DNA of 21,412 nucleotides, from the IMG/VR virus record IMGVR_UViG_3300031111_000146, positions 1 to 21,412 of that record; one strand, given 5' to 3'. The translations under genes and the position numbers were made by a program. Below the pieces are notes generated by a model. That model was not told the DNA's origin. It saw nothing but the letters and a program-made list of their open reading frames with translations, and searched no databases. This document shows, piece by piece, positions 43 through 20,851 of this stretch; the stretch's first letter is position 1; every line of letters starts with the position of its first letter. This DNA is from a virus.

Positions 43-1785
43 TTACTTGTCGATGGACTTCGGCACGACCGCTACCTGCGCCACGACATACCCTCCTGCA
101 GGCAACCCCTCTAGTTGAGCAAACGAATACTGATCGACGTTCTTCGTCTGCCAGTCAGTCGTCGGCTTTAGGATCTTGTACGGCTCAGAACCCGCAACAG
201 ATGTCGAGACTGCTTCAAAGATCAACTGAGTCGCCGTGTTGGCAATGATCTCCCTCGTCGCGTCTTCCCCCCCACGAGTTCCACCCAGTTGGACGTAGTC
301 GCCAATGAACTCGTGCGGCACCCAGCTCTTGGACGAATCAGTCAAGGAGTCTGCTGTGCCAGAGTCTGCTGTGCCAGAATCATCCAATCTGCATTGTCGA
401 TACTTGACTCTGTAGCCCTTCGTCCGCCAGTCCCTAATTCCCGCCCATCGGACATGAAGAATCGGCACCGTGCTGCCGTCTTCGGCCTCTTTCCATAGCC
501 CCTCAGCGTCCAGTTTGTTTGGGGCATTGGCAGTCGCCCCGCGAAGCTCCCTGTCTGCCTGATCCTGCTGACCAATCCAGTCAGTTCTCCCTTTCAGTAG
601 CCAGAACCGACGATTGCCAATGCGTGCATCCAGCGTCCCCGAAATCGTAGTTGAGCCAGGACCTCCAGGCTCAATCCGATGACGAATCCCAGTCACTCCC
701 ACCTTCACCGTTTCCGAATGAGAGGTGAACTGAATCAAGTCCCCGCCCTCAATGTTCAAGCACAGCCACGGAATGTGAATCTCTACGCCGGGGCATGGCT
801 TCGATACATCGTGCAACGCCTTCTCGCAGGCGTCCATGGCCTCAGCACGGGTGTCGATGACGGATAGGTCCTTCTCGACAATCCGCATGTACTTGTGCAG
901 CCGGTTCCCATTGCCATCTGGGATGCCGTAGAGGGCCTTCGCACTGGCGTCTGCACATTGGACGCTTGCCTGCTTGCCCGTCGTCCTATCCTTATAGACC
1001 CACCGGATCTTCGTCCTGATGTTGGCTTCGGTGTAGCGGGTTCGAATGATGCGGAAGTTGCCAGCCAGATCAGCATCGGCATTCGTGTCATCCCGCATCG
1101 GATCAACTACCGTAGGGCGGAACTCCGAGTTCGTGCTGTTCCACTTCCACATCAACACAAAGCCAATCGAGTTGACGGGATTCGAGACAGCGTCCAAGAT
1201 GTTCGTGTCGCCCATCTCGTAGTGGTACAAGTAGTAGTTCGGGTTGTCCTCTACGATGATGTTCTTCGCGTGCCCGTAGTGCCCCAGGATCGTATTGAGA
1301 CAGTTCGTCCCTGTAGAGAGCGTTACGTCGCCAAGCGTCCAGCCCTCAAGCTCCTTGTCAATCCAGTGGTCAGCCCAGGGCTGCATCCCGTCGACACAGG
1401 AGCATCTGAGGACATCATCCATCTCGACATCCTCAACACCTTCAATGTCAGAAGGGCCGACATAGCCCTCAAACATTGTCGCTCCAGTGCCGTCTTTGGC
1501 TATGTCGATCTGGACGTTGTGATACGCTCCGAGCAGAGGAACGCTGCCAGTATTATAACTGGAAGTATGCCCTGGATCAAGGCTGAGATTGTTGTCTCTG
1601 AAATACTGATGGTTAGCGATGTCTAGCTCTGCTGTCCACCGTCCCGAGTCATGAGAGTAGTCCAGTGAGCAGCCAAGGACGCGCCCACCTGTGAGCGATG
1701 TCCAAGAGACACCGTAGTCAGTCGATACCTTGAAGCTGAAGGATGTGACGTTGGTGCAATCGTTTCCGTTGGCGATCGAGCGCAT
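43..1785 (-). CDS. Baseplate/tail-tip hub protein with interrupted FN3-like C-terminus (580 aa)
   Basis: This is probably a structural protein of the tail tip, acting as hub or adaptor at the distal end of the tail tube. Residues 1 to about 410 are beta-rich and end in a pattern typical of phage hub proteins: an alanine-rich helix (DACEKAL), then a beta stretch with IEGGDLIQFTSHSETVKVGV and STTISGTL. Residues about 430-580 look like an FN3-type domain (HVRWAG, GYRVKYR, then YVVAQVAVV) split by a module at about 470-537 that begins with the repeated peptide DSGTADSGTADS. I start it at ATG 1785, which shares one base with the tape-measure stop (TAATG). An upstream GTG-type start at 1809 would overlap that gene further. 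Coming directly after the tape measure fits Dit, Tal or hub proteins; I cannot separate these from sequence alone. Confidence 0.6.
   Translation of the reverse strand: MRSIANGNDCTNVTSFSFKVSTDYGVSWTSLTGGRVLGCSLDYSHDSGRWTAELDIANHQYFRDNNLSLDPGHTSSYNTGSVPLLGAYHNVQIDIAKDGTGATMFEGYVGPSDIEGVEDVEMDDVLRCSCVDGMQPWADHWIDKELEGWTLGDVTLSTGTNCLNTILGHYGHAKNIIVEDNPNYYLYHYEMGDTNILDAVSNPVNSIGFVLMWKWNSTNSEFRPTVVDPMRDDTNADADLAGNFRIIRTRYTEANIRTKIRWVYKDRTTGKQASVQCADASAKALYGIPDGNGNRLHKYMRIVEKDLSVIDTRAEAMDACEKALHDVSKPCPGVEIHIPWLCLNIEGGDLIQFTSHSETVKVGVTGIRHRIEPGGPGSTTISGTLDARIGNRRFWLLKGRTDWIGQQDQADRELRGATANAPNKLDAEGLWKEAEDGSTVPILHVRWAGIRDWRTKGYRVKYRQCRLDDSGTADSGTADSLTDSSKSWVPHEFIGDYVQLGGTRGGEDATREIIANTATQLIFEAVSTSVAGSEPYKILKPTTDWQTKNVDQYSFAQLEGLPAGGYVVAQVAVVPKSIDK
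347..378 (-). repeat. Perfect 15-base tandem duplication inside the hub gene
   Basis: The unit agtctgctgtgccag (plus strand) occurs twice in succession, at 348-362 and 363-377, with one matching base on each side. It keeps the frame and encodes the repeated peptide SGTAD at the left border of the module that interrupts the FN3-like domain. Confidence 0.85.
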
Positions 1786-4700
1786 TAGTAGGCCCCTGCC
1801 AGTTCCCAACCCGAGCCAATGTTGCCCTGTGCGTCTCTGCGTTTGACTGCGGAATGGATCTCGCGACCGTCAAGGTAATGCTTGTTGATGATGACAATGG
1901 GAGTGCGCCGATAATCGTAACCAACGCCAGCCTCGGCTTGCGCGGGCCGAAGATCGGGCATCGAGAGGCGTCCAACCTTCTCGCCCTCATGGACAACAGC
2001 AAGGCCAGATTTCGCCACTTCCCACCACTCGCCCGGTTCGGTTTCCAAGTATGGAACCTTGGGGATATTCACAAATGGGATGAGATTCACAACCGAGATC
2101 AAGGCATTGAATACCCAGATGATGGCGTTTACAACCCCCTTGATGAACTCGTTTGCCAAGGACCCAATGGTGCCACCAAGCTTCTGCCAGAAAGTCGTGC
2201 TCTCCGTCATCCAAAGCACACCCAGCTTTTCCCAGAAGGAAAGCGACTCGGATGAGAAGATCGCATCCATGGTCGCGGCGCTATCGCCTGCTCCATCCAG
2301 AAGCTTGATCTTGGCCAGTTCGCCGCCCTTTCGCAGTTTCTCAACGAAGCCATCGAGCGCGGCTTGCAGCTGATTCTTGAGAAAAGCACTGATTGTCGGC
2401 CAGTTTTGCTGTACCCATGCCGCCCACTCTTCCAACATCGGCCTGATCGCTGTATCCCAGGTCGACTTGACGATGCTGAATAGCTCTCTCAGTAGCGGCA
2501 TAACCTTCGGCCCCAGAAACTCAACCAGTTCCTTCAGCTTCTGCCAGAGGAACTCCGCGACCTCGCGCAAAAAGACAAAGACCTCGCTCTGCAGGAAGGG
2601 GTCCATTTCAGTCGACCACCACTCACCGAACGCCTTGAAGAACTTCACAAGGTCATCGCGCTTTGACCAGATGAAGGAAGCAATGCCGCCAACCGCTGCT
2701 CCGAACGTCTCAAGAATCGGAGTAACCGCCGAGAAGATTGCGCCGATGAGCCCGGCCAGTTCGTCCTTGTTCTCAATGATCCAGTCGGTTGCCACAATCA
2801 CTGCATCGACAAACTTGTTGATGACCCACAGGAACCCCTCGACAATTCCCGGCCCCACTTCGGCCCAGAACTCTTCCATCTTCTGGCCGAGGCTGATGAT
2901 CTTTGCCTTCAGCGCCTCAATCTCAAGGCCGAACTGGCCGAGGAGAAGCGTGACCCATGTGACCTTTTCTTCGGCTTCTTTCTCCTCATCCTCTTCTGCG
3001 CCAGGGAAGATAGGAGGCTGGTCAGGGATGGATGCCCAGTGACGAATCCTGTCGTACTTCCAGCCCACAGGGACATTCAGATTGGAGAGGCGAGCCGTTG
3101 TCTTCGAGATCTCCTTCGTAACCTTCTTGACCTCATCCTCTACGTGGAACAACTCCTTGAGAATCGCAGCAATCGGACCAAGGAAGCCGAACAGGATGTT
3201 CGCCAGCCACTTCGTCATCTCTGCAAGATACGACTGGATGTCGGCGTAGTACTCGCTCTTCTTGGCGAGATCCCAGATAGCACTAGCCGCCCTCCAGGCA
3301 TAGTCAGCCAGCGTCTTGAGAGCCTCCCAGACTGTCTGCGCCATCTGCTTCAGCTCTTCGAGGCGCTCCTGGAACTTCTCCTTGATGTCGCGGAAGATGG
3401 AGGCGATGGTGTCAATGACGCCAGCAATGCCGCCATAGATGTTCCCAGAAGCGAAGGCTGCCGCAGCTCCTGCCGCACCGCTTACATAGCCCGCCATCTT
3501 TGGCATTCCAAGAGCATCAAGAGCAGACGAGATCACCTGGCCGATTCCCGTGATGTGGTGCGCCCAGTCGATTACCTCTGCCTCAGCATCACCAAGCGCT
3601 TCCTTGAACATTTGAAGCGCTTCTTCGGCTTCCTCGGTCTCTTCTGCCATTCCCGGCAAGGCGGACATCGAACTGATGATGTTCTCGATGAACCCGTAGA
3701 AGCCGCCCTTGAGTGCCTGGTAGCGCTCCATCATCTCAGCATCGCCAATCGACTGCTCTGCTAGACGGCGGAAGTTGCCAAGGATCGTCTCGAAATCGCC
3801 AGAGAGGAAGAGGTTCGCTTGTGTCCGGCCGAAGTCTTCCCACATCCTCTCCATGGCCTCTTCAGTGGCCTGCTCGCCTGCTTCAAGCATGTCCTGGATT
3901 TCTTCAGGGGTTTTGCCAAGCACGCCAAGCAGATCATCCAGAGCCGTTTGAAACTCTCCGGCATAGTCTGCCTGATTCAATTGGTAAGCGATGTCGCGTC
4001 CTTGCTGCAACGCCGACTGGATGGCAGAGATGCTGCTGCCCGCAGCGAGGAGGTCTGGAATATCTAGGGTTCCGGCAGTCGCGCGCGAGATGATCTGGTG
4101 GGCTTGGGAAAGCGCATCACTCGGACGAAGTGGTTCTTCAAGGTCGTCCAGAAACTCTTGGAATGCCGATTTCAGTTCCTCAAGTCCTCCGACAAGTCCA
4201 AGAATCGCTGTGATGACTGACTGGATGGCAGAATCTGCGCCTAGGCCCGCATCCTTGAGGTCCTCTTGCGCTTGAGTTGCTTCACGATAGAGAGTCTTCA
4301 GCCCAGAAACTGCTTCAGCCTTCTCTTCAGCAGACTTAGCAGAGTCTGTCAAGACAGCACGCAGCTTCTCAAGACGCGAACTGAAGGTCTCGACGATAGT
4401 CCCCGCCCGTTTCAGCCCAGGGACAAGCTTCTCCATGTACGCAAAGAACTCGTCGAAGACACCCCCCGCCTCTGGATACTTCTCGCTGAGGGCAACGATC
4501 CGATCGAAGAAGCCTTGGATATTGGCAAGAGACGCATACCAATCAACGGTCTCAGCAGTCACCGCACCAAGGCCCTCTGCCATCTTGTCGAACTGCTCGT
4601 GAAGAGTGAGGTCCTGAATCTCCTCCTTGAGACCTCGAAGCGCTTTTTCGAATTCCTCGACCTCTTCTTCACTCTTCCCAAGAGCGCGATACCATTGAAT

Positions 4701-7700
4701 CGTATCCTGAATGGCTTGCTCAGTGTTCTTGCCGAATGCCTTGAGAACAGGGATAATGTCCTTGCCCTCATCAACCATCTTCTCCATGGCCTCGTAGAAG
4801 GCTTTCTGGATCTCTTCGCTTGATTCCAGGGCTTTCCCGTACTTGAAGATCTCAGCAATGAGCCCCTGGACTGTTGGCTGGCTCTCTGCAAGCAGGTCAA
4901 AGAACACACCAAACGTGTCCTCGAAGTCCTCGCCGCCGACAGCATCTAGCACTGCCTGCCACGCCTGAGCAAGGGCACTGACCTCCGCCGCCATCTCGCC
5001 AGCGTTCATGTCCTGTAGCTCGCGGACAAGAACGCCCATCTCCAGAAGAGGATCTAGTTCTAAGGCATTGCCTAAGCGGTATTTGAATTCCTCAGTAAGA
5101 CCAACTGCCTCGACGAGCTTCGAGACGAAACCCTCGCCTGCACTGCTAAAGGTTGCAGCAATGACGCCGAGGACCTCGTAGGCAGATAGCTCAAGGTTCT
5201 TCCTCGCTAGGTTGAGCGCGTCTGCAGTAACGTCAACAGCATGTTGCAGGCTGATCTCAGCGTTGCGAGCAGCAAGTGCAGCAAGCTCCTCCCCAAGCTG
5301 TTCCATGAGCCCCGGATCGGCTCCAGTGATTAGGGAACGAAGATTGAAGACATCAAAAGCCGCCCGCGAAGCCTCTCCCTCAGCGTCACGAAGCTTCTGG
5401 ATTTCTTCGGTAAGCCCGCCAACTTCAACAGCAGCAGCATGAGCACTGTCCCGCAAATGCCCCACGCCCAAGGGGTCTCCTGCGTAGAGCGCACGCAGGT
5501 CGCTGATTGCCAAACCAGTCTTGTCGTGCAGCCGCTCCAATGCCTTCTCAAAGCCGCCAAATGTCCCTGGATAGATTGTTTCTGGCAACGTGCCGCCTGA
5601 ACGAAGGAATTCTCCGATTGATGCTGACCCCATAACCGTTGCCACAGCAAGTTCGTCTGCTTCTTGTCGGGCTTTGACTATCGTTTCCAGAATGCCAGCG
5701 ATGTAGTCAGCAATGGAGGCCAGCGACCCAATAAAGCCCTCTGTGGCTGCCGCCGTGAAGTCGCGCCACGCCGTCTTCATGCGGTCGAACTTGAAGCTTG
5801 CCGCCTCTGCCTGCTTTTCAAACGCCTCTTCAGCCGTTCCTGCCGCCTGCGACATTCGTTCCAGGTCTAGTGCATATGCCTTAGCAGCAGTCGTAGCAAG
5901 GGGGAGAACCGCTGTCACCGCACGGACGTTGGTGAACAGGTTCTCCATCTTGAGGTTGTTCGCATCAGCATAGCGGCCGATGAGGCCAATCGCCTCGGCA
6001 AACCCTTGCGTCTCAATGAGGGCTCGCCCTGAGTCATATCCCAGAGCCAGGATAACCTTGGCAAGCTCTGTGCTGGGACGCAAGATCTGCATCATCGTCT
6101 GACGCAGGGATGTGATTGCCCAGTCCGTTGCAATGCCCTGGCGAGTAAGGGTAGCGATAGCAGCAGTCATCTCGTGGATGGCTGCACCGGCTGGAGCTGC
6201 CACTCCGGCGAGGCGGCCGAACTGGCTACTCAATTCTGACATGGTTGTATTGTGGGCAACGATGTCTTCCGCAATGAAGTTCTGGTGGATGGGGACTTCT
6301 AGGTCGTAGACTTTCTCGCGCCCAATGTCTTCAATGGATACGATCTTGTCGTATTCGACAATCCCACGAGCTGCCCTTTGATGCTGCGGCGTATGAGAGA
6401 CAACTTCTCCTACGCCTTTGCGGTCAATACCAATACGATCCACAAATCGGCGCACATCGGCATAGCGGTGTGTTTCCCAACACCAGGCATTGACGGACTT
6501 CCTGCGCCTTACGGTCCCGACAATTCCGAACCTGAGCAATAGATGCGACACATCTCTGACTAGTCGTTCCGAGGAAGACACAAATCCTACTTCAAATCCA
6601 CTGCCAGTTCTCGATCCCCTCTTATCGTAGAGCCAGCCGTCTCCATTAAAGAGCCACCGGAGCAACACAGCGACGGAGGATTCGCTCCATGTGAATGCTT
6701 CCTCTGGAATATGCTTCTTGGAAGCAGGACAGTCATCAAGCCCGAGGCCGCGCAAGAAATCCATTGCGGGATTCTTGCCTGTAAACCGATTCTCAATACC
6801 ACGAGAGATCGAATAGGTGGGGGCTTTGTCGTTGTTGTGGTTCTTGTTCCTGGCCTGGCATCCGAAGTGTTCCGCCCATTCGGCAACTTCGCGCCCATAG
6901 GTAGTGGTCGTAATTTCTGGTGTCTTAGAACGGCCCGTTCCCTCAGCCAGCCACAGTCCAAGGAATGCAGCTTCCCCTTCGGGAACATGAACGTCGCCGA
7001 AGAAAGGAAGATCTGTCGGCACTGCAATCTTGTCGCCAACAGCCAGATCGGAAACCTTCTTCCACCCGGATTCCGTCAGGTAGGGATGATTCCAGGTCGT
7101 CTTGATGGATCGGCCCAGGCGTGTTCCGAGCCGGACGATTGGCTTCTCGCCCATTTCGACCCAGTGAGACTCCATCGGGACAAACGAGCGCCCCTCGAAC
7201 GAGACAATACGTTCGCCGCCCTCCATCTCGTCGATGCGTTTGTATCGCCCATCTGCAAGCAAGACGCGGGTGTCGCCCGTGACGCACTTGCCGAACTTGA
7301 TAGTAGTGAACAGCAAATCATTGATATGTGCAGTTTCTGTTGCCTGGAGACCCCAAGCATTCAAAACCGTGGTCAACATATCGCTGACCTGGAAGACATC
7401 AGCCAGCCCTGCCGAAGCACCCTTCAGACCCTGCTCAAGGATCTCCATGGCGTCAGCGCCATAGAACGTCGCTGAGTAGATCTGATAGAGGGCAGCAGTG
7501 GCCTGAGACCCCAGGACAGGGAATTCCATGGCCAACGAACGAATCTGGCCGCGCAGCATCTCCATCTGCGCCCAAGTGTTGTCAGTCAGCGTCCAGACGT
7601 TGTGGAGTTGCGTGTCGAACTCAATGGCAGCCTTCATCGCCGCCGAGAACTCCTGGCCAACCTTGCGAACCGCAACGGCCAGCCCCAGCCAGGGGGCGAC

Positions 7701-7904
7701 CTTCTTGACCGTGCCCCATAGGGGAGTGAACGACTTCGTAGTGGCAGCAGCGCCCTTCGTGACGACGCCCAGGCTCTTGCCGACCTGTTCCATCGACTTC
7801 TGCAATGGCATCATCGCCGCAGCGGCAGTAGATGCCCCTGCGGAGAACGTCTCGAAAAGTGCCTTGTAGTCTGATTGAATGCTTACAACAGTGCCGCCCG
7901 CCAT
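1785..7904 (-). CDS. Tape measure protein precursor containing an intein (2039 aa; 1693 aa after splicing)
   Basis: The tape measure protein sets tail length and is threaded through the tail tube. Residues about 85-206 and 553-750 together form the conserved phage minor tail (TP901-type) domain, with motifs such as FDTQLHNVW, AAALYQIYSA-like helices and GVAAPAGAAIHEMTAAIATL. Residues 207-552 are an intein that splits this domain. The rest is long helical, coiled-coil and hydrophobic sequence (for example IYGGIAGVIDTIASIF and VVNAIIWVFNALISVVNLI), and a typical C-terminal end containing YLDGREIHSAVKRR. By the usual rule of about 1.5 angstrom per residue, the spliced length would give a tail near 250 nm. 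ATG at 7904 has a GAGGAG ribosome site and follows the chaperone stop by one base. Confidence 0.93.
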   Translation of the reverse strand: MAGGTVVSIQSDYKALFETFSAGASTAAAAMMPLQKSMEQVGKSLGVVTKGAAATTKSFTPLWGTVKKVAPWLGLAVAVRKVGQEFSAAMKAAIEFDTQLHNVWTLTDNTWAQMEMLRGQIRSLAMEFPVLGSQATAALYQIYSATFYGADAMEILEQGLKGASAGLADVFQVSDMLTTVLNAWGLQATETAHINDLLFTTIKFGKCVTGDTRVLLADGRYKRIDEMEGGERIVSFEGRSFVPMESHWVEMGEKPIVRLGTRLGRSIKTTWNHPYLTESGWKKVSDLAVGDKIAVPTDLPFFGDVHVPEGEAAFLGLWLAEGTGRSKTPEITTTTYGREVAEWAEHFGCQARNKNHNNDKAPTYSISRGIENRFTGKNPAMDFLRGLGLDDCPASKKHIPEEAFTWSESSVAVLLRWLFNGDGWLYDKRGSRTGSGFEVGFVSSSERLVRDVSHLLLRFGIVGTVRRRKSVNAWCWETHRYADVRRFVDRIGIDRKGVGEVVSHTPQHQRAARGIVEYDKIVSIEDIGREKVYDLEVPIHQNFIAEDIVAHNTTMSELSSQFGRLAGVAAPAGAAIHEMTAAIATLTRQGIATDWAITSLRQTMMQILRPSTELAKVILALGYDSGRALIETQGFAEAIGLIGRYADANNLKMENLFTNVRAVTAVLPLATTAAKAYALDLERMSQAAGTAEEAFEKQAEAASFKFDRMKTAWRDFTAAATEGFIGSLASIADYIAGILETIVKARQEADELAVATVMGSASIGEFLRSGGTLPETIYPGTFGGFEKALERLHDKTGLAISDLRALYAGDPLGVGHLRDSAHAAAVEVGGLTEEIQKLRDAEGEASRAAFDVFNLRSLITGADPGLMEQLGEELAALAARNAEISLQHAVDVTADALNLARKNLELSAYEVLGVIAATFSSAGEGFVSKLVEAVGLTEEFKYRLGNALELDPLLEMGVLVRELQDMNAGEMAAEVSALAQAWQAVLDAVGGEDFEDTFGVFFDLLAESQPTVQGLIAEIFKYGKALESSEEIQKAFYEAMEKMVDEGKDIIPVLKAFGKNTEQAIQDTIQWYRALGKSEEEVEEFEKALRGLKEEIQDLTLHEQFDKMAEGLGAVTAETVDWYASLANIQGFFDRIVALSEKYPEAGGVFDEFFAYMEKLVPGLKRAGTIVETFSSRLEKLRAVLTDSAKSAEEKAEAVSGLKTLYREATQAQEDLKDAGLGADSAIQSVITAILGLVGGLEELKSAFQEFLDDLEEPLRPSDALSQAHQIISRATAGTLDIPDLLAAGSSISAIQSALQQGRDIAYQLNQADYAGEFQTALDDLLGVLGKTPEEIQDMLEAGEQATEEAMERMWEDFGRTQANLFLSGDFETILGNFRRLAEQSIGDAEMMERYQALKGGFYGFIENIISSMSALPGMAEETEEAEEALQMFKEALGDAEAEVIDWAHHITGIGQVISSALDALGMPKMAGYVSGAAGAAAAFASGNIYGGIAGVIDTIASIFRDIKEKFQERLEELKQMAQTVWEALKTLADYAWRAASAIWDLAKKSEYYADIQSYLAEMTKWLANILFGFLGPIAAILKELFHVEDEVKKVTKEISKTTARLSNLNVPVGWKYDRIRHWASIPDQPPIFPGAEEDEEKEAEEKVTWVTLLLGQFGLEIEALKAKIISLGQKMEEFWAEVGPGIVEGFLWVINKFVDAVIVATDWIIENKDELAGLIGAIFSAVTPILETFGAAVGGIASFIWSKRDDLVKFFKAFGEWWSTEMDPFLQSEVFVFLREVAEFLWQKLKELVEFLGPKVMPLLRELFSIVKSTWDTAIRPMLEEWAAWVQQNWPTISAFLKNQLQAALDGFVEKLRKGGELAKIKLLDGAGDSAATMDAIFSSESLSFWEKLGVLWMTESTTFWQKLGGTIGSLANEFIKGVVNAIIWVFNALISVVNLIPFVNIPKVPYLETEPGEWWEVAKSGLAVVHEGEKVGRLSMPDLRPAQAEAGVGYDYRRTPIVIINKHYLDGREIHSAVKRRDAQGNIGSGWELAGAY
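6249..7286 (-). mobile_element. Intein with LAGLIDADG (DOD) homing endonuclease in the tape measure protein
   Basis: The intein is 346 residues long, tape-measure residues 207-552. It starts with Cys207 in CVTGDTRVLL (block A). Block B has the TxxH motif in TTWNHPYL (Thr270, His273). Two endonuclease motifs follow: FLGLWLAEGT (acidic Glu321) and LLRWLFNGDGW (Asp422). Block F reads VYDLEVPIHQNFIAED and block G is VAHN followed by Thr553 as the +1 nucleophile. All splicing residues (Cys1, TxxH, His-Asn, +1 Thr) are present, so it should be a class 1 intein active in splicing. Both acidic endonuclease residues are kept, so the homing function may also be intact. Removal joins FTTIKFGK to TTMSELSSQFG, restoring a typical tape-measure helix. 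The gene is open through the whole insertion. Confidence 0.96.
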
Positions 7905-7905
7905 A

Positions 7906-8615
7906 CTACTCCTCGTTCAACGGGTGCTTATCACCGCGTTGCGCGGCGCGTTCTGCCCACTCCTTGGGTGTAATGTCGTGTGGCGATAGCCAGAAAGAGG
8001 GAGCTTTTGTGGGCTGCTTGCCCTTCTGAACCCCAGCAAAGGCTTCGTTCATGTAGATACGGGCGGAGCCGTACTCAATCTGAACGAACTGGGGAATGGC
8101 GTTGAGATAGAGAACTGCCTGGGGGAGGGTGAGATTCGCCACTTCTTCCCCAGACAGATGGAACCAAGCCTGAATCGCGGGGACCGCTAGTTCCCATCGG
8201 ATTCCGCCGACTTCCTCGCGTTTCCCGAACCACCTTCTTCGTCTTTGTCAGTTCCCGGTCGCTTGCCCGAAAGCGCAAACGAGAACACTTCGCCAAGCAG
8301 CACCGACGAGAACCCGCCCAGGCCGTAAGCGACCAAGTCGGATGTCTGCTCTCGCGTCAACTCCTTGACAATGTCATTCTTGCTCTTCTTCATCGACCTG
8401 TAAAGAACTTCCAGGAGCAACTCCGAATCGACGAAGTCCATCGCGCCCTTCGCGCGGAACATCTCCTGCGTCAGGTCCTTGCCGGTCTTCTTCTTGATCT
8501 CCGCATGTTCTGCCAGTGTCAGCGGCCAGAACTCAAATTCCTTCCCCCCAATTTCCTCAACAATCGGAGTCGGTCGAACCGAATCCAATACGGCCCCAAG
8601 ATCCCCCTTGCTCAT
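7906..8615 (-). CDS. Tail assembly chaperone GT, made by -1 frameshift (236 aa)
   Basis: This is the long form of the tail chaperone, analogous to lambda gpGT, which links tail-tube and tape-measure proteins during tail assembly and is absent from the virion. Ribosomes reading G slip back one base at GGGAAAC (8226-8220) and continue in the frame that stays open from 8247 down to the stop at 7906. The added 104 residues begin REEVGGIRWELAVPAIQAWF and continue through LSGEEVANLTLPQAVLYL, ending in PLNEE. The T part has no convincing start of its own; the first possible one is a GTG at 8142, well inside the conserved region. Its position just before the tape measure matches the family exactly. 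The frameshift is inferred from the motif and the overlapping frames. Confidence 0.85.
8187..8615 (-). CDS. Tail assembly chaperone G (142 aa)
   Basis: This is the short tail chaperone made when no frameshift occurs. It begins MSKGDLGAVLDSVRPTP, has a central FEFWPLTLAEHAEIKKKTGK motif common in phage tail chaperones, then helices ending near LGEVFSFALSGKRP, and a polar, glycine- and acid-rich tail that holds the slippery site. I chose ATG at 8615 because AGGGGTG lies a few bases upstream; a GTG at 8621 would leave no room for a ribosome site. It stops at TAG 8187, about 30 bases past the slip site. Confidence 0.87.
   Translation of the reverse strand: MSKGDLGAVLDSVRPTPIVEEIGGKEFEFWPLTLAEHAEIKKKTGKDLTQEMFRAKGAMDFVDSELLLEVLYRSMKKSKNDIVKELTREQTSDLVAYGLGGFSSVLLGEVFSFALSGKRPGTDKDEEGGSGNARKSAESDGN
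8220..8226 (-). promoter_or_regulatory. Programmed -1 ribosomal frameshift site GGGAAAC
   Basis: Read on the minus strand in the G frame, the codons are TCG GGA AAC, giving the heptamer G GGA AAC, a canonical X XXY YYZ slippery sequence. A -1 slip leads directly into the open T frame. An AAGGTGG stretch a few bases upstream resembles an internal Shine-Dalgarno stimulator, and short GC-rich stems can be drawn downstream. These helper elements are less certain than the heptamer. Confidence 0.88.
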
Positions 8616-8636
8616 ATTCACCCCTAGAGAATGCGG

Positions 8637-9490: not shown

Positions 9491-9898
9491 TTAGCTGTAC
9501 GCCAGCGCGCCGTTGCCCTGGAACGTGAAGGAAACGTCTACAGATCCATCTACAGGCGCACTAACGCTTGTCGCGTGCGCGTAGACATCTCCGTAGAAGT
9601 AGTGAGTACCATCGACGTAGCATTCCAGTTCAAGTTTCGCTGGTGTCAAAAGTGCCGTGATGATCACTTGCTGACCGTTCGCGTCGGTGTCGTACTCCCA
9701 GTGCCCGTCAAAGCTTCCCGACCACTGCTTCAATCCATCAAGGAACTCTCGCCAGTCATCCGCACTGTCGAACGTGGTCACGTCGATCGTGTCGTAGCCG
9801 ATATCAATGGACCAGTTCTTGATCGCAGCAACGGTCTGGCAAGAACCCCCGCCATCCGTATCAATCTTGACATTGCCGCTCTTGCCAGCAAGTGCCAT
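9491..9898 (-). CDS. Major tail (tube) protein, short form (135 aa)
   Basis: This is probably the main tail-tube subunit. It is small and beta-rich, with KNWSIDIGYDTIDVTTFDSA near residues 27-46, DWREFLDGLKQWSG after that, and a C-terminal strand set ending SVDVSFTFQGNGALAYS. This pattern fits the TP901/lambda V-type tail-tube fold. It sits between the tail terminator and the chaperones, as expected for the tube gene. ATG at 9898 has a GGAGG site six bases upstream. It is closely related to the following 269-residue gene, which shares the same core, so this is a tandem duplication. No sheath gene is present, favouring a non-contractile tail. Confidence 0.82.
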   Translation of the reverse strand: MALAGKSGNVKIDTDGGGSCQTVAAIKNWSIDIGYDTIDVTTFDSADDWREFLDGLKQWSGSFDGHWEYDTDANGQQVIITALLTPAKLELECYVDGTHYFYGDVYAHATSVSAPVDGSVDVSFTFQGNGALAYS

Positions 9899-12007: not shown

Positions 12008-15007
12008 CTAGTCCTCGTAAGTGACTTCGAACTCAACCGCCCAGGTAGGATTGTTGGTTGCTCCGGCGTCGTCCGTAATCAAGATGCCGACGATGTCGTC
12101 AGCGTCACACGCAATGGCTGTCGCAAGCGCAAACTTGTCGTTGAACTGCGAGGCAGCCCAAGACAATTCGGCTGAGAACGTCCCATCGGTGAAGTTGGCA
12201 ACTACGAACTTGATGATCTGATCGTGGACTGTTGCGCCCATGTCAGTAACCCGCACATCAACGATCTCGCACTTGTACGGAGCCTGCCAGGAATCCGTAG
12301 TAGGAATCCCAATGATAGGCTCGTCCTTATTCGTGCTGTCAATGAGTGGTGTTTGAGTTAGCTGCGCATCAGTAATCACATACTGAATCCAGTACGCCTC
12401 TTCGCCGTCGATGGTTCTGACTACCCAGTCCGACGGAGGCGCGAACGTGATCGTGCCAGTACGCTGAAGCGTCTGTGTTCCAGTTGTGGCGCCGGTCGAA
12501 GTGTTGTCGAATACGGTCAAGTCCGCCCACGAGGACGCACCGTCACTGTATTGCCACTTGCCGCCAGCGCCGCCCCACGTTGCCATCGCGCCAGTTCCGG
12601 TAGCCAGATCGTTGAAGGCTACATAGCAGAACTGCTCGTCGAATCCGATGGCAAATGCGTCATCTGCTTCCTCTGCGTCTGCATCAGGGAGAAGCTGGTA
12701 ATTGGCTGTCCAATCTGCCCCGGCCGACAACAGCGCTGACGTACTCAGATCGTCCCATGTAGTTGAAGTCTTGTCGTAGACCTTGCACAGAACGTCATTG
12801 TCGCCAGCCGCGCCGTCGTTGTAATCGTGCGTCGTGATGTCGACCGTTGAACCGACCATGCCGCCGCCGTTGGTAGCCGTACCGTCCGTATCTTCACCAA
12901 CCATCCCGCCAGCAAACGGCAAAATCGTAGTGAAGGTATTGGTCGTCAGAACGTCGGCTGTCGCATCCACAAAGTCAGGAATGGTAAGCGCAGCAGAGGC
13001 ATGGGTCTGGTTATCCGAGTCAACCGTCAGGTCAGCATCGCCATCATCGACGATGAACGAAGCGCCCTGTACGGACCCAGCAAACAAGACATTCCCACTG
13101 GCGACTTCCAGCGCATACGGCGCTGTGATCGTTACCGAGCCACCGGCAGCTGGTTCGCCTGCGATGTAAACCGTAGACGCCTTGGCGACCGTGACCGCAC
13201 TGGAATCAGTTTGCGTTGGTTGGCCGATGTACAACCCCATACCGCTCATATCCGTCACGCCGGTCGATCCCGTAAGGGTGGTCGTGCCAGGAGACAGGCT
13301 GAGCAATCTGTGAGTCGACCCGTTGGCCGCTGCAAACGTCGCTGGAGCACCAGTCAAGGTAACATTCGCCATCTGGTCCGTCGTTACACGAGAATCAACT
13401 TCAACGATCTTCGTAGTCCCGTCGTAAACCTCAAGCGCAGCATCGGTATCAGACTTGATAACGACATCAGTGGCAGCAGTCGCAACGTCCAACTCGCCGC
13501 CATCCAAGTCGAAATCACCGTCAATCTGAAGGTTGCCGCCCTGATCCAGGCTGGCCACTTCCGTTCCCTTGCCGTCAGGCAAGAAGGACAGCCGATAGTC
13601 CGTCGAAGTCTCGACATCGAGGAAGATCGACATGTCGTAGTCGGTCGTGGTGTCGTGGTCGTAGCCACTGAAGATCAGATAGCCGGAATCCTGATCGGAC
13701 CCGGTGGTCGTGTTATCGATAAGCAAGTCAAGCTGGGCTGCCCCAACCAATCCGATATTGCTCGCGGAGACCAACCCGTAGTCCCAGCCCGAACCAACGT
13801 CTAGCGCATGGGCCGTCTCTCCGCCTTCCTGTGTCATGGCACCAAAGCGAGCGCCGTAGATATTCAGGTTGGCATCGCCGTCCCCAATTGCCGCAACGTC
13901 GAACAGAACCAAGTTGTTCGTTCCTGCCGTCGCCGCACCAATCGTCGGATCGAAGTAGATTCCACGATAGGTTGACGCCACTCCCGTTCCATAGACTGGT
14001 GTGGTGAAACACATGTCAATCAAGTTGACCGTGTTGGCCACCGTGGGGATTCCCACTGTTGGATTGATGTCAAGGAAGATGCTTGTCGGAGTATTCGACG
14101 TATGTGCCGGAACCGTTCCAGAGATGGCCGTGTACGTTTTGCTGCTTCCAGCAGACTGGTCGGCACAATCAAGCGTGATTGTCCCGGCTGCGGTTGCGTT
14201 CGCAATCGTTCCGCCATCCACTGAGAACGTCGAGTCAATCTGCAACGCACCTGCACTTGTCAGATTAAAGACTTCTGTCTCATGGTTGTTGATTGTGAAG
14301 TCGTTGCCATTGGCTTCCGACTCAAGAATCCACGTATCCGTATTGTCGCCGCCCGCATCCGCATCTAGCGTCAGCGAAGCATCGCCCGTTGTATCGTGAT
14401 CGGAAGCGACAATCTGGAAATCGATTCCCGTATCGTCATCGCCTGTCAGAACTACATCTCCATCCGTCGAGTTGACAAGTGTTTCGTCATTCTCAAGGAT
14501 GAAGTCGTAGTTGTGCGCAATGGCCGTAGCCGAACCACCAGCAGTGATCTCAGGATCATCATCGTCTTCCCATCCGATGAACCAATAGGAATCCCCATCG
14601 TCATCTTCCGAGAAGAAAAATGGCTGCGTCTCGCCGTTGAAGTAACCGAAATCGGCATCCGTCGTAACAATGCCAAAACCAGGTACGTCCACTGCGCTAC
14701 CAGCAGGCATGTCAAGGATCAGGCAGTTTGCATTGGCGTCAGCCGTTGTCCACTCCAACGTAATTGGGCTGTCCGTGCCGAACCCGAGATCGAGATCGTC
14801 GTATACCTCCCAGTTTCCGCTGGAATCGATTAGTTCGACTTCGTTGCCGTAGGTGCCGACTGCCAACGAGTTGGAGAACGACAGGTCTGTGAACCGCGTG
14901 TACCCGCCAATCTCTTCCTCTGCAGGAGCAGTGTCCTGTAGAACCGCAAACCCAAGGAACCCAACAACAGCGGCAAGGACGAGGGTAGCAATCGTGTTGA
15001 AATTCAT
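12008..15007 (-). CDS. Large acidic fibre-like virion protein with N-terminal hydrophobic signal (999 aa)
   Basis: This is probably an exposed fibre or adhesin, perhaps attached to the head. Residues 6-23 are strongly hydrophobic (TLVLAAVVGFLGFAVL), followed by APA at 27-29 and an acidic stretch, which looks like a signal peptide or membrane anchor. The remainder is rich in Asp, Thr, Gly and Ala with repeated short beta stretches, such as LQIDGDFDLDGGELDV, typical of beta-helical or beta-prism fibres. Residues about 818-888 resemble a module found in many phage baseplate and fibre proteins (TFAPPSDWVVR, then GEEAYWIQYVITDAQL). ATG at 15007 has a GGAGG site. Its place directly after the capsid gene suggests a head fibre rather than a tail fibre. 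Family not identified; the signal is odd for a virion protein. Confidence 0.75.
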   Translation of the reverse strand: MNFNTIATLVLAAVVGFLGFAVLQDTAPAEEEIGGYTRFTDLSFSNSLAVGTYGNEVELIDSSGNWEVYDDLDLGFGTDSPITLEWTTADANANCLILDMPAGSAVDVPGFGIVTTDADFGYFNGETQPFFFSEDDDGDSYWFIGWEDDDDPEITAGGSATAIAHNYDFILENDETLVNSTDGDVVLTGDDDTGIDFQIVASDHDTTGDASLTLDADAGGDNTDTWILESEANGNDFTINNHETEVFNLTSAGALQIDSTFSVDGGTIANATAAGTITLDCADQSAGSSKTYTAISGTVPAHTSNTPTSIFLDINPTVGIPTVANTVNLIDMCFTTPVYGTGVASTYRGIYFDPTIGAATAGTNNLVLFDVAAIGDGDANLNIYGARFGAMTQEGGETAHALDVGSGWDYGLVSASNIGLVGAAQLDLLIDNTTTGSDQDSGYLIFSGYDHDTTTDYDMSIFLDVETSTDYRLSFLPDGKGTEVASLDQGGNLQIDGDFDLDGGELDVATAATDVVIKSDTDAALEVYDGTTKIVEVDSRVTTDQMANVTLTGAPATFAAANGSTHRLLSLSPGTTTLTGSTGVTDMSGMGLYIGQPTQTDSSAVTVAKASTVYIAGEPAAGGSVTITAPYALEVASGNVLFAGSVQGASFIVDDGDADLTVDSDNQTHASAALTIPDFVDATADVLTTNTFTTILPFAGGMVGEDTDGTATNGGGMVGSTVDITTHDYNDGAAGDNDVLCKVYDKTSTTWDDLSTSALLSAGADWTANYQLLPDADAEEADDAFAIGFDEQFCYVAFNDLATGTGAMATWGGAGGKWQYSDGASSWADLTVFDNTSTGATTGTQTLQRTGTITFAPPSDWVVRTIDGEEAYWIQYVITDAQLTQTPLIDSTNKDEPIIGIPTTDSWQAPYKCEIVDVRVTDMGATVHDQIIKFVVANFTDGTFSAELSWAASQFNDKFALATAIACDADDIVGILITDDAGATNNPTWAVEFEVTYED

Positions 15008-15040: not shown

Positions 15041-16138
15041 CTAAGTCGAACCAGCAACCCACGCCTTGGGATCAAGAAGACTTCCACCAAAGATCTGGCG
15101 GATCTTCATACGGTTCTCGTCGAACCCGAAATTGTGCCCGGTGTTCGGTTGCTCATAGAAGAACTCAGGACCAGCCGAGCCATTCCACAAACCAGCTTCC
15201 ATCGTGTTAGCGCCCAGCGCCGGATCAGCCATGATGTACCAGTGCGTCGAAGTGATGTACGGCGTATGGATGATCTCAAGGTTCATGAGCGGATTGATAC
15301 GGTTGTTCGCATCCTCCGCAACGTGATCCGATCCCAGGATAGCCTGCGCGTTCATCAACTCAGACGTATGGACGATGAGATACTTCGGAATGTACATCAC
15401 CGGCACGTAATTGCTGTCCGTGAAAGTCGTGGACGAATCAAGCGCCGTTTGCTGAAGCATCTTCTCAACAGCCGTCTCAAGATTGGCCGTAGTCAGTCCC
15501 GTCGAAGTCATCGTGTTGTAGAACGTGGTGCTGTCAACAGAACCGATCGTTCCGAAGATCGCATTGCCGTCATACGCATTCGGCTTGGCGTCCAAGCACG
15601 TATAGAAGAAGAAGTACTCATACGTGCGAGCCGCTGCCGCGCCCATCTTCTGCGCTGCCTGATCCAGAAGTCGCAGGTCGTCATACGTCGACGCCTCAAA
15701 CGAATAGCCGAACAGCTTGCCGTACTTGGCAGGCGTCCAACTGATCTGGTCGTCCGAGAAGTCTCCTTCCAGGTAAGGCATCTTCTCCTCAACCTGGGGC
15801 AGACGATCCATCCCGCCCGTGATGATCCCGTAGTAGGTACGGAAGTCATTCACGCTCTGCGTGCTAGAGATCAACTTCGGCCACTGTGCGGGCCATTCGT
15901 TGTACCCCTTGTATAGCTTCTTGTGGATGCGGTCGAGCGTCAGCGAGTCAAAGGCGTCCGCGCCAATGGCTTCGCGAATGGCCACAACCGGCATCTTCCC
16001 AGCAACAGTGGGCTTGTCCTCAAGGAACTGCAGAAAGTCGCGTGCGCTCTCTGTCAACTCGATATCAAGACCATCCCACTTGCGAAGCGATCCTTCGCTC
16101 GCCGTTGCCTCTTCTTTCACTAGAATGTTATCAGCCAT
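15041..16138 (-). CDS. Major capsid protein (365 aa)
   Basis: This is the likely major head protein, building the icosahedral shell. Its length fits HK97-fold capsid proteins. Features include a polar N-terminal arm (to about residue 70), an extended stretch around EEKMPYLEGDFSDDQISWTP, the helix DDLRLLDQAAQKMGAAAARTYEYFFF that matches the long spine-helix region of Mu gpT-like and related capsids, and a C-terminal beta section (HWYIMADPALGANTMEAGLW, MKIRQIFGGSLLDPKAWV). It follows the protease/scaffold and decoration genes, as expected. ATG at 16138 has a strong GGAGG site. No long cleavable delta domain is evident, which agrees with scaffold being encoded by the separate upstream gene. Confidence 0.9.
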   Translation of the reverse strand: MADNILVKEEATASEGSLRKWDGLDIELTESARDFLQFLEDKPTVAGKMPVVAIREAIGADAFDSLTLDRIHKKLYKGYNEWPAQWPKLISSTQSVNDFRTYYGIITGGMDRLPQVEEKMPYLEGDFSDDQISWTPAKYGKLFGYSFEASTYDDLRLLDQAAQKMGAAAARTYEYFFFYTCLDAKPNAYDGNAIFGTIGSVDSTTFYNTMTSTGLTTANLETAVEKMLQQTALDSSTTFTDSNYVPVMYIPKYLIVHTSELMNAQAILGSDHVAEDANNRINPLMNLEIIHTPYITSTHWYIMADPALGANTMEAGLWNGSAGPEFFYEQPNTGHNFGFDENRMKIRQIFGGSLLDPKAWVAGST

Positions 16139-16150
16139 GCTTGGCCTCCA

Positions 16151-16582
16151 CTAAGCCTTCGCGTCGAACTCTTTGAGGAGAATCGACCACAGTTCAAAGT
16201 AAACCGTCCCGCCTGAAGCAGGATCTGTATGTACAACCTTGCCAACCGGAACCGTCGCGCCGGAAGTTCCTGTGTAGAGGGTGTCTTTGTCGTAGCTGTA
16301 GACCATGTCGCCAAGCCCGAAATCCACTCCAGACTTGGCGGTGCCCTTGAACATACCAGACGCATACACCGTCCCGTAGGCCCCGGTTGCGAAATCCACA
16401 GCACAGACACCAACCGCTCCGACAGCGTTCGATCCAGTTACCTCAACAAGCTCCCCGCTGGAAAGCGTCACCATGTCGCCTGCATAGAGTGCTGCGCCCG
16501 TGGCATTCAGCATTCTGCGGCGAACGGATTCCCCCTCCGGGGATACGAGGATGAAGTTTCTAGCGTTTGCTCCAACAGCCAT
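16151..16582 (-). CDS. Capsid decoration-like protein, second copy (143 aa)
   Basis: This is a small protein just before the capsid gene, probably a head decoration or stabilising protein of the DUF2190-like type, which adopts a beta-barrel. It begins MAVGANARNFILVSPEG, has YAGDMVTLSSGELVEV, AVGAVGVCAVDFATGAYGTV and GKVVHTDPASGGTVYFELWS. It is plainly a paralogue of the gene immediately upstream: the start, the GMFKG core and the HTDPA...FELWSI end are shared, with roughly 60% identity by eye. ATG at 16582 has an AGGGGTG site overlapping the upstream stop region. The family assignment is tentative; the duplication is clear. Confidence 0.72.
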   Translation of the reverse strand: MAVGANARNFILVSPEGESVRRRMLNATGAALYAGDMVTLSSGELVEVTGSNAVGAVGVCAVDFATGAYGTVYASGMFKGTAKSGVDFGLGDMVYSYDKDTLYTGTSGATVPVGKVVHTDPASGGTVYFELWSILLKEFDAKA

Positions 16583-16594
16583 CAGTCATCACCC

Positions 16595-17020
16595 CTAGCT
16601 CTTCGCGTCGATTTCGTTCAGGATGATGGACCACAGCTCAAACCAGACTGTCCCGGCTTCAGCGGGGTCTGTGTGAACAACCTTGCCAACAGGCACATCG
16701 CCAGCCGTGCCCGCATCCAACGTCGATGCGCTGGCGTTGTAGACCGCGTCTCCCAGCGCGAAGTTCACACCACTCGCAGCCGATCCCTTAAACATCCCGG
16801 CCACGTAAACGGTCCCGTAGGAACTCGCAGCAATGTCCTGTGCGCAGATACCAACTGCACCGACTGTATTCGAGTCAGCCACTTCGGCCAGCGTATTGCT
16901 CGAAAGCGTCACCATCTCGCCTGCCTGAAGTGCCGTTGCACCGTTCAGCATTCGACGGTGAACAGGTCGCCCTTCCTCAGATTGAAGGATGAACTTCCTG
17001 GCATTTGCTCCGACAGCCAT
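16595..17020 (-). CDS. Capsid decoration-like protein, first copy (141 aa)
   Basis: This is the first of two tandem paralogues, probably decorating or stabilising the capsid. It starts MAVGANARKFILQSEEG and carries LQAGEMVTLSSNTLAEVADS, GICAQDIAASSYGTVYVAG and GKVVHTDPAEAGTVWFELWS, aligning end to end with the second copy. I use ATG at 17020, which overlaps the protease/scaffold stop as TGATG and implies translational coupling; a GTG one codon earlier is also possible. The two copies differ mainly in the 95-110 loop, so they may occupy different sites or carry different surface charges. Confidence 0.72.
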   Translation of the reverse strand: MAVGANARKFILQSEEGRPVHRRMLNGATALQAGEMVTLSSNTLAEVADSNTVGAVGICAQDIAASSYGTVYVAGMFKGSAASGVNFALGDAVYNASASTLDAGTAGDVPVGKVVHTDPAEAGTVWFELWSIILNEIDAKS

Positions 17021-17505
17021 CACTCATCACCGTCCAAGAGCCCGGCACGCCTGAGCAGCTCAAGATCCTTCTCTTTGCGATCCTTCGCCTGCTCCTGAAT
17101 GTCTTCCGGGTCTTCCTTCACGTCATCGACCTTCGCTGCCTCTTTGACATCTGCCAGAAGCTCTCGCACGACGCCAATCGCAGCATCGACAGCATCAGCT
17201 TCGACTTTGATGTCCTGGAACTGCTCGCGAATGCGAGCCTCCAGCTTCTCAGGCAGATCGGCCTCGCCAAGCTTCTCGTCAAGGATTCCACGGCTCTCCA
17301 AAACCTCAATTCTATGTAGAGCTTCGTCGCGCTCCGCAGAAACCTTCGTCAGCTCGCTCTTCGTCTCTTCAAGAGACTCTGTCAATTCCTTCAACGTGCC
17401 TTCCTCCTGGATCGTCGCCAGAGCCGCGTCACGCGCCTCCTCGGCAATCGTCTTCACGTACTCGGGGAAGGCTTCCTTCAGATCCTGGATGGATTTGATC
17501 TCCAT
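17020..17505 (-). CDS. Nested scaffold protein from internal start (161 aa)
   Basis: An in-frame ATG at 17505 (Met235 of the protease-scaffold, MEIKSIQDLKEAFPEYVK) lies exactly where the protease domain ends and the scaffold region begins. It has a near-perfect ribosome site, GAGGAGG, five bases upstream (17517-17511), stronger than that of the full-length gene. This mirrors lambda C and Nu3, where free scaffold is made in excess from an internal start. The product would be the helical, charged part only. Its existence is inferred from the start signal and the domain boundary. Confidence 0.68.
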   Translation of the reverse strand: MEIKSIQDLKEAFPEYVKTIAEEARDAALATIQEEGTLKELTESLEETKSELTKVSAERDEALHRIEVLESRGILDEKLGEADLPEKLEARIREQFQDIKVEADAVDAAIGVVRELLADVKEAAKVDDVKEDPEDIQEQAKDRKEKDLELLRRAGLLDGDE

Positions 17506-19237: not shown

Positions 19238-19524
19238 GCGATGAACGTCCTTACACAGACTCCAATCATCGCCACAAGCATGATCCCAATGAGCCAGCGG
19301 TTCGTCGCCGCTGTCTTGGCAACGCCCGTGAATCGATACGCCAGTCCGTTCTGCGGATTCCCGTTCCCAAGCAACGCCTGGCTAATCGGATCGATCCGCC
19401 TACAGAATTCCGTGCGCAGTGAACTCGTCATGCCCTGGATGTCTTTCTTGATTTCGCTAATCTCGCCTTCGAGACCCGCTACCTTGCCGTCGCGCAAACC
19501 ATCTTCATAGGTCTTATCTGCCAC
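19234..19524 (-). CDS. Small coiled-coil protein with C-terminal membrane segment (96 aa)
   Basis: The N-terminal part (KVAGLEGEISEIKKDIQGM and onward) looks like a short coiled coil. Residues about 74-96 form one hydrophobic helix (WLIGIMLVAMIGVCV) at the very C-terminus. This resembles XhlA-type or other holin-accessory proteins in layout, but no family motif is certain. I choose GTG at 19524 because GGAG lies six bases upstream; a TTG at 19536 has no ribosome site. It overlaps the portal gene by 11 bases and the next gene by three, so all are coupled. Confidence 0.62.
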   Translation of the reverse strand: MADKTYEDGLRDGKVAGLEGEISEIKKDIQGMTSSLRTEFCRRIDPISQALLGNGNPQNGLAYRFTGVAKTAATNRWLIGIMLVAMIGVCVRTFIA

Positions 19525-20851
19525 CCTGCGCTCCAACCGTGCTGTTCACTGCAGCACGCTCAACGTCCTTCGTCGGCCGTCGCCACTGAAAGCCTCCTGC
19601 AGGAAACGGCTTATCAACGTCATCGCCTTCAAGTTTCTGTCCCACAATCCCACCAGGAGGCCAGCGGTTTTCTGCACGCATTCGCTCTTCTTCCTCTTCG
19701 GGATCGATGCCGAGTTTCTCCATGGCAGTGCGCGAGGAGATTAGCTGCAGAATCCACGGCTCCATCCACGCCCGAACTTCCTTCTCCGTGTCTCTCGGGA
19801 CAATCGGATAGAAGCCCACCGCGAACTCGCCAGATGGATCGATCGTTCGCTCTACAATCTGTATGAGTCCATTCGCAAACGAACTCTGCATCTCTTTGAA
19901 CCGACGCACCGCAGGTGCCTCAGCAACCAAAGAAGCCGCATAGTTCGTGTCTCCAGAATCAGAGAAGACCATGTAGTAGGGAAGGCCAGCGCCTGAAGCA
20001 ATCGAGAGGTCCAACGATCTCCCCTGGTCCTTCCAGTTCATGCGGAAGGCAGGATGGTCAATCGTGTGGTACTCCTCCTTCAGGTTGCAGGTGATGATCG
20101 TTCCCGGAGGAGGGAGAGCAGCAAGGTCGTTCACCCTCGTCGCAATCTGCTCCGCCGTCCATGGTCCCTTGCGAATGATCGGAATGCTCGCCAGAATCTT
20201 CAGCAGAACCGATTGTGAGTTCTCCAACGATCGCTTTCTCGTCAGGGAAGTCAGAATGGGCTCTAGGATTCCATGTCCCCACTTCTGGCCGAGCGACAGG
20301 ACGCGAAGATGAATCAATTCATCAGCATCCCATGTTATCTTCTCGTATTGGTCGCGCCCCTTGTACCCGGTGATGTCTTCTGGATCGCCCTTAGCAGACA
20401 GGATCTCCGCAACTTGATCGGCGCGAAGATGGCGGATCTGAGGAATGGCATTGTCCTGGTCGGCAAGCCGCATGAAGTGGTTCCCATCAACTAGCGTCAG
20501 CCGAATCGCGTTTCGCCACTTCTCGTCAAAGTTGTTGGACTTCTTGAATTCAGTCCACTCGCCCTCATCCCTCTCATTATCGAACTTCACAAAGTAGCCA
20601 TCCCCAAGGATGTAAGACGTATAGGTCTCGATGATGTTGCGAGCACGGGGGTCCTTGCGGTACGCCTTGTAGGACTCCTCCATCAAGTCATACCGATCGA
20701 CGTTCAGATCATCATCGCTCTGACTCGAAAAGCGATTCCAGCCAGATGACGCAGCTGCCCCGCCCTCATGATTGGACAGGGAATAGTCCGCTTCCGTAAC
20801 CACACGGTCACGGAACAGAGTCTTCAGGTTCTCAAAGATGGGGATAGACAT
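19514..20851 (-). CDS. Portal protein (445 aa)
   Basis: This is the portal that forms the dodecameric ring at one capsid vertex, through which DNA is packaged and ejected. Typical portal features in order: an early region with YKAYRKDPRARNIIETYTSYI, then LTLVDGNHFMRL, IPQIRHLRADQVAEI, a DELIHLRVLSLGQKWGHGIL strand-loop ('G-x-S-x-L-x-x' position), the long helix through SLENSQSVLLKILAS, and a C-terminal crown region with DTEKEVRAWMEPWILQLISS and IDPEEEEERMRAENRW. The length is usual for the family. ATG at 20851 has AAGGTG upstream. It is followed by small membrane genes and MuF, and the large terminase would be expected beyond the right edge. Confidence 0.92.
   Translation of the reverse strand: MSIPIFENLKTLFRDRVVTEADYSLSNHEGGAAASSGWNRFSSQSDDDLNVDRYDLMEESYKAYRKDPRARNIIETYTSYILGDGYFVKFDNERDEGEWTEFKKSNNFDEKWRNAIRLTLVDGNHFMRLADQDNAIPQIRHLRADQVAEILSAKGDPEDITGYKGRDQYEKITWDADELIHLRVLSLGQKWGHGILEPILTSLTRKRSLENSQSVLLKILASIPIIRKGPWTAEQIATRVNDLAALPPPGTIITCNLKEEYHTIDHPAFRMNWKDQGRSLDLSIASGAGLPYYMVFSDSGDTNYAASLVAEAPAVRRFKEMQSSFANGLIQIVERTIDPSGEFAVGFYPIVPRDTEKEVRAWMEPWILQLISSRTAMEKLGIDPEEEEERMRAENRWPPGGIVGQKLEGDDVDKPFPAGGFQWRRPTKDVERAAVNSTVGAQGGR

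Follow-up and report, generated by a model that had tools for sequence, protein, structure and literature searches.

What interrupts the tape measure protein (TMP) gene of this phage, and does the interruption serve the phage or only itself? The window, that is, the whole stretch of DNA analysed, is the 21.4-kb virus record, and a siphophage-like module of head and tail genes lies on its minus strand. Pfam and PHROG searches identified the genes for the portal (19514-20851), the capsid (15041-16138) and the tail tube protein (9491-9898), all on that strand. The TMP open reading frame (1785-7904, minus strand) encodes 2039 residues and is interrupted by an intein. The N-extein (7287-7904, minus strand; TMP residues 1-206) matched PHROG tape measure families with a best E value of 2e-19, and the C-extein (1785-6248, minus strand; the remaining 1487 residues, 553-2039, and the stop codon) matched PHROG_991 with an E value of 1.8e-29 and 13 others. 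Tape measure families (PHROGs 991, 1272, 1533 and others) are matched by both exteins, Pfam also found PhageMin_Tail (PF10145) in them, and joined together they form a TMP of 1693 residues.

The identity of the host gene is further supported by a small, tail assembly chaperone-like ORF directly upstream of it (8187-8621, minus strand), which has a GGGAAAC slippery heptamer at 8226-8220 (minus strand) in X XXY YYZ phase and an overlapping -1 frame that stops at 7906, immediately before the TMP start codon, the pair spanning 7906-8621. A frameshifted, overlapping pair upstream of the TMP gene is the usual arrangement of tail assembly chaperones. By its sequence family, its length and its position after the tail tube and frameshifted chaperone genes, the interrupted gene is a TMP gene. 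Scans for promoters and terminators gave no excess over shuffled sequences. Elsewhere in the module, a 999-residue ORF between the head and tail genes (12008-15007) is without any Pfam match; its product is acidic, with a high content of Thr, Asp and Ala and a hydrophobic stretch at its start. Adjoining the capsid gene are two adjacent ORFs (16151-16582 and 16595-17023) that resemble each other in sequence (MAVGANARNFIL... and MMAVGANARKFIL...) as well as in length and look like a tandem duplication.

The insert occupies 6249-7286 (minus strand), in frame after TMP residue 206 (FGK) and before TTMSEL, with TTCGGCAAG flanking it on one side and ACAACCATG on the other. An earlier note on this DNA had described it as a 346-residue full-length intein with a homing endonuclease, the removal of which would leave a TMP of 1693 residues; its coordinates, lengths, residues and flanking DNA all held, and Pfam, AlphaFold2, Foldseek and PHROG analyses bore out the description. 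Pfam analysis revealed an Intein_splicing domain (PF14890, 74.7 bits against a cut-off of 35.8), covered from position 1 to position 155 of 155, and a LAGLIDADG_3 domain (PF14528, 52.3 bits against a cut-off of 22.5). The AlphaFold2 model, obtained with a 12-row alignment, has a pLDDT of 91.8 and a pTM of 0.91. Its best PDB fold matches in Foldseek are intein homing endonucleases, led by TliVMA (E 3e-23), with PhoVMA, PI-SceI, PI-PfuI and I-DmoI also among the fold neighbours, and the best PDB sequence matches in a profile search are DnaB mini-inteins. With Pfam, AlphaFold2 and Foldseek in agreement, the intein signal is far beyond chance.

All catalytic residues for splicing and cleavage are invariant among 12 non-redundant members of the intein family described below. 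The first residue, Cys1 (codon 7284-7286, minus strand), is the nucleophile of the first splicing step; block B reads T-W-N-H (7086-7097, minus strand) with T64 and H67 invariant; and blocks F and G (VYDLEVPIHQNFIAEDIVAHN, 6249-6311, minus strand) contain the invariant Asp328, His345 and Asn346. The second splicing nucleophile, the +1 Thr of the C-extein (codon 6246-6248, minus strand), is a Thr in every intein-bearing TMP with a visible C-side. The invariant acidic residues of the endonuclease lie in the first LAGLIDADG motif FLGLWLAEGT (6936-6965, minus strand; E115, Glu321 of the ORF) and in the second, LLRWLFNGDG (6636-6665, minus strand; D216, Asp422 of the ORF). With C1, T64-H67, H345-N346, the +1 Thr and a complete Hint domain, the insert has the sequence characters expected of a class 1 intein, and the two motifs with acidic E115 and D216 mark it as carrying a putative LAGLIDADG homing endonuclease. 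Assignment to class 3, in which Cys1 is absent and a block-F Cys serves as nucleophile, was ruled out by the presence and invariance of Cys1. The sole departure of the window intein from a textbook intein is at block-F position -12, where the auxiliary His is replaced by Gln in the window and L009 and by Ala in L003 and L008, the rest of the family having His.

We also considered that the insert might be a self-splicing, endonuclease-encoding intron that is removed from the RNA, since an endonuclease gene splits the TMP gene of ICP1 and the transcript of that TMP gene undergoes splicing (PMC10448857). However, the insert in the window is fully in frame, its Hint domain is complete, with the residues for splicing at the very ends of the insert, and no Rfam match was found in the window at gathering scores. 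With the insert fully coding and no Rfam intron in the window, the RNA intron was rejected, and we give it almost no chance of being correct.

If the insert is an intein, TMPs lacking it should rejoin exactly at its ends, a point on which the earlier note had staked its interpretation. Thirteen TMPs that lack the intein, some taken from IMG/VR and others being proteins with a tape measure annotation in isolates (Bacillus vB_BhaS-171, Marinobacter PS3, Dinoroseobacter R26L and cyanophage MED4-117), align across the exact join, and four of them (L066, L067, L071 and L013) are gap-free there. Closest to the window in TMP sequence is L066, which has no intein and aligns without a gap over 327 residues at 67% identity. 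At the DNA level, the L013 junction TTCGGCAAG|ACCACAATG matches the predicted empty site at 16 of 18 bases. The insert is thus in frame with exactly rejoining insert-free homologues, as a class 1 intein should be. A +1 Thr accompanies the intein in every case, and L015, L039 and L064, three of the 13 TMPs without the intein, lack this Thr; the pattern fits a restriction of the site by the chemistry of splicing. Searches for a near-identical pair of phages with and without the intein found none.

Over the aligned TMP region the median conservation score is 1.8; the stretch that holds the junction scores 2.8-3.0 and is among the most conserved, with another stretch scoring slightly higher. The claim that the intein splits the most conserved helix of the TMP therefore stands as far as high conservation goes, fails on the superlative and lacks support on the helix. 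The L013 TMP, which has no intein, was modelled, and its junction (K133|T134) fell in the loop that connects helix 115-130 to helix 136-152; this tentatively suggests insertion in a loop rather than inside a helix, as the model is weak there (pLDDT about 57-68). This low-confidence TMP model gave no significant PDB match.

Searching IMG/VR with the intein alone as query, and then with its alignment, retrieved 16 contigs with close relatives (14 with the full intein and two cut by the contig end), among which are 11 non-redundant full-length relatives. In all 16 the intein lies within a TMP-like ORF at the identical G(K/Q)^T site, preceded by (F/L/Y/G)G(K/Q) and, wherever the C-side is visible, followed by Thr. 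The TMPs of the window, L002, L009 and L025 are about 51-62% identical to one another and about 22-33% identical to those of other groups, and the inteins are 44-67% identical throughout the family, except for the near-identical L004/L005 pair. Judged from these alignments, a site-specific intein family, which we call TMP-a, recurs at one site across very divergent TMPs; the search was pattern-based and favours close relatives, so the single site is established for the close family, not for every distant relative. Three TMP inteins (L009:5001-6236, L012:5001-6236 and L025:4001-5239) are longer, at 412-413 residues, and possess an extra helix-turn-helix-like stretch with a weak HTH_3 match between the endonuclease and the C-terminal splicing blocks.

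The history of the intein differs from that of its host gene. Presence and absence are scattered on the TMP tree (eight parsimony changes, at least five of which are forced by strongly supported branches), and the distribution is no more clustered than shuffled labels. The TMP tree pairs the window with L009 at 98/97, but the inteins reject this pairing (AU p=0.0003), and the intein tree instead groups L009 with L025 at 100/100; the window-L009 discord had been spotted before the trees were built. Between L004 and L005, the dN/dS ratios are 0.054 for the endonuclease, 0.065 for Hint and 0.058 for the extein, and the endonuclease is under constraint in this pair, the only one close enough for synonymous sites, comparisons with the window being saturated. 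Tree discord, scattered distribution and constraint together support a mobile element, from which cleavage and homing are inferred. The TMP-a inteins very probably form a mobile, site-specific family capable of splicing and homing.

The same data bear on whether the intein regulates the tail. The lumen of a siphophage tail tube is roughly 4 nm across. By a size estimate, the folded 39-kDa intein has a minimum width of at least about 4.5 nm and exceeds this lumen, so splicing should precede tail assembly; this much of the mechanism in the earlier note is a reasonable inference. The intein could then be a post-translational switch, with slow or conditional splicing that times tail assembly by holding back TMP activity until late in infection or until certain conditions arise, a checkpoint at which a selfish element gates formation of the tail ruler. 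Such a role would fit the location of the insert within a conserved region of an assembly protein, as well as the size argument that unspliced TMP should not assemble, and conditional splicing has been published for other inteins (reviews cited in PMC7156551). Against it, presence and absence are scattered among close TMPs, the endonuclease is retained and constrained, and the trees disagree, all marks of a mobile element and not of a fixed regulator. We therefore consider a switch or checkpoint improbable. The suggestions that the insert times assembly or alters tail length found no evidence either way: a compact domain would not add 346 residues to a helical ruler, and its scattered occurrence, with near relatives lacking it, means that TMPs manage without it. 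Together with the helix split, these are the parts of that mechanism that lack support.

The block-F position allows another reading, in which the window copy is decaying and undergoes cleavage at its ends only, with no proper splicing, leaving the TMP to work as two pieces or not at all. Replacement of the block-F His by Gln favours it, as does a related freestanding gene that has lost its splicing residues. This gene (L015:4310-5413, JACSRF010000162.1) encodes a 367-residue relative of the intein, 47% identical, without Cys1 and the terminal Asn and with LAGLIDADG intact; a TMP gene free of inteins (L015:5484-8435) follows 70 bp downstream, and the site in that TMP gene reads GGK|LTFEEL, with Leu at +1. 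The window intein, however, has kept all its obligatory catalytic residues in an open reading frame, and the members with Ala or Gln at the block-F position are also full length and otherwise intact, which makes decay very unlikely, more so than a switch. L015 is a contig of an Anaerolinea MAG, with binning as recorded, and was the sole match in genome_contigs. We rejected it as a chromosomal intein, the gene being freestanding and not an intein; its sequence suggests that it is possibly an intein turned free homing endonuclease beside its target gene.

In all likelihood, then, the insert is a full-length intein of class 1 that carries a LAGLIDADG homing endonuclease and is a member of TMP-a, a family of selfish elements that invade the TMP genes of tailed phages at a conserved G(K/Q)^T. 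This explanation is weakened somewhat by the Gln at the block-F position of the window copy, by a dN/dS pair that excludes the window and by our searches having found no two near-identical phages of which just one carries the intein. According to established intein biology, the precursor TMP would fold and the intein would excise itself by means of Cys1, His67, Asp328, His345-Asn346 and the +1 Thr, giving an unscarred 1693-residue TMP and free endonuclease. In a co-infection, the freed endonuclease would cut the matching DNA site in the TMP gene of a phage that lacks the intein, and repair templated by the intein-bearing genome would copy the element into the cut gene. The conserved site may also help retention, because imprecise deletion would damage an essential protein. 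On the simplest view the intein is a selfish element, with no demonstrated part in building the tail.

To place the TMP-a family among known inteins, 50,697 phage records were searched by tblastn with two family members. No TMP intein was found among the annotated matches: the matches were only 21-41% identical, those with annotation lay in TerL, RNR, helicase, RecA and portal genes, and a few matching records were without annotation. Among the matches listed, the TMP-region matches in 88 phage records were single uninterrupted pieces. A class-wide search of Anaerolineae yielded distant inteins only, in 35 other genomes; six of these inteins were examined: DnaB and DNA polymerase III alpha each house two, a dCTP-deaminase-like gene houses another, and the host gene of the sixth was left unassigned. 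No tape measure intein was found in the open-licence papers searched; the related literature describes inteins of terminase, RNR, dCTP deaminase, helicase and minor head or portal genes, or a TMP intron. The statement that inteins usually sit in enzymes is broadly right, with the qualification that inteins in portal, a virion protein, have been published (PMC5050341).

The intein site in the TMP is seemingly undescribed, its chemistry and life style being those of known phage inteins, and recurrence across TMPs is its most interesting feature. The site sits in a non-enzymatic, length-setting virion protein and is a recurrent target, not a one-off. The TMP-a set is well suited to asking why selfish endonucleases favour TMP genes, as also in ICP1, by what means a large helical assembly protein copes with a folded insert before splicing, and how elements of this kind pass from one phage to a distant one. 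It also carries a warning for annotation, as the TMP length read from the ORF would overestimate tail length (2039 against 1693 residues).

Comparison with the phage inteins of terminase, portal, RNR and helicase genes (e.g. mycobacteriophage TerL and portal, PMC5050341; SPbeta bnrdE) revealed a common Hint plus homing endonuclease architecture, a conserved site in the host gene, a scattered distribution and a phage home, whereas these inteins are about 21-41% identical to TMP-a and reside in other host genes, and TMP-a is a single family recurring at one TMP site. TliVMA, PhoVMA, PI-SceI and PI-PfuI share the overall fold of the window intein, a Hint domain with an inserted LAGLIDADG endonuclease (Foldseek E 3e-23 to 3e-14), but are 13-20% identical, have other host genes and are archaeal or yeast proteins, 7qsu and its relatives being longer. 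The chromosomal DnaB, DnaE and dCTP-deaminase-like inteins of Anaerolineae are distant homologues with the architecture in common (E 1e-26 to 1e-39); they are hosted by cellular replication and nucleotide enzymes and match far more weakly than the TMP family. In the ICP1 TMP gene, an endonuclease-bearing element is likewise housed by a tape measure gene (PMC10448857), in that case as an intron spliced at the RNA level and encoding an HNH enzyme, whereas TMP-a combines predicted splicing at the protein level with a LAGLIDADG endonuclease.
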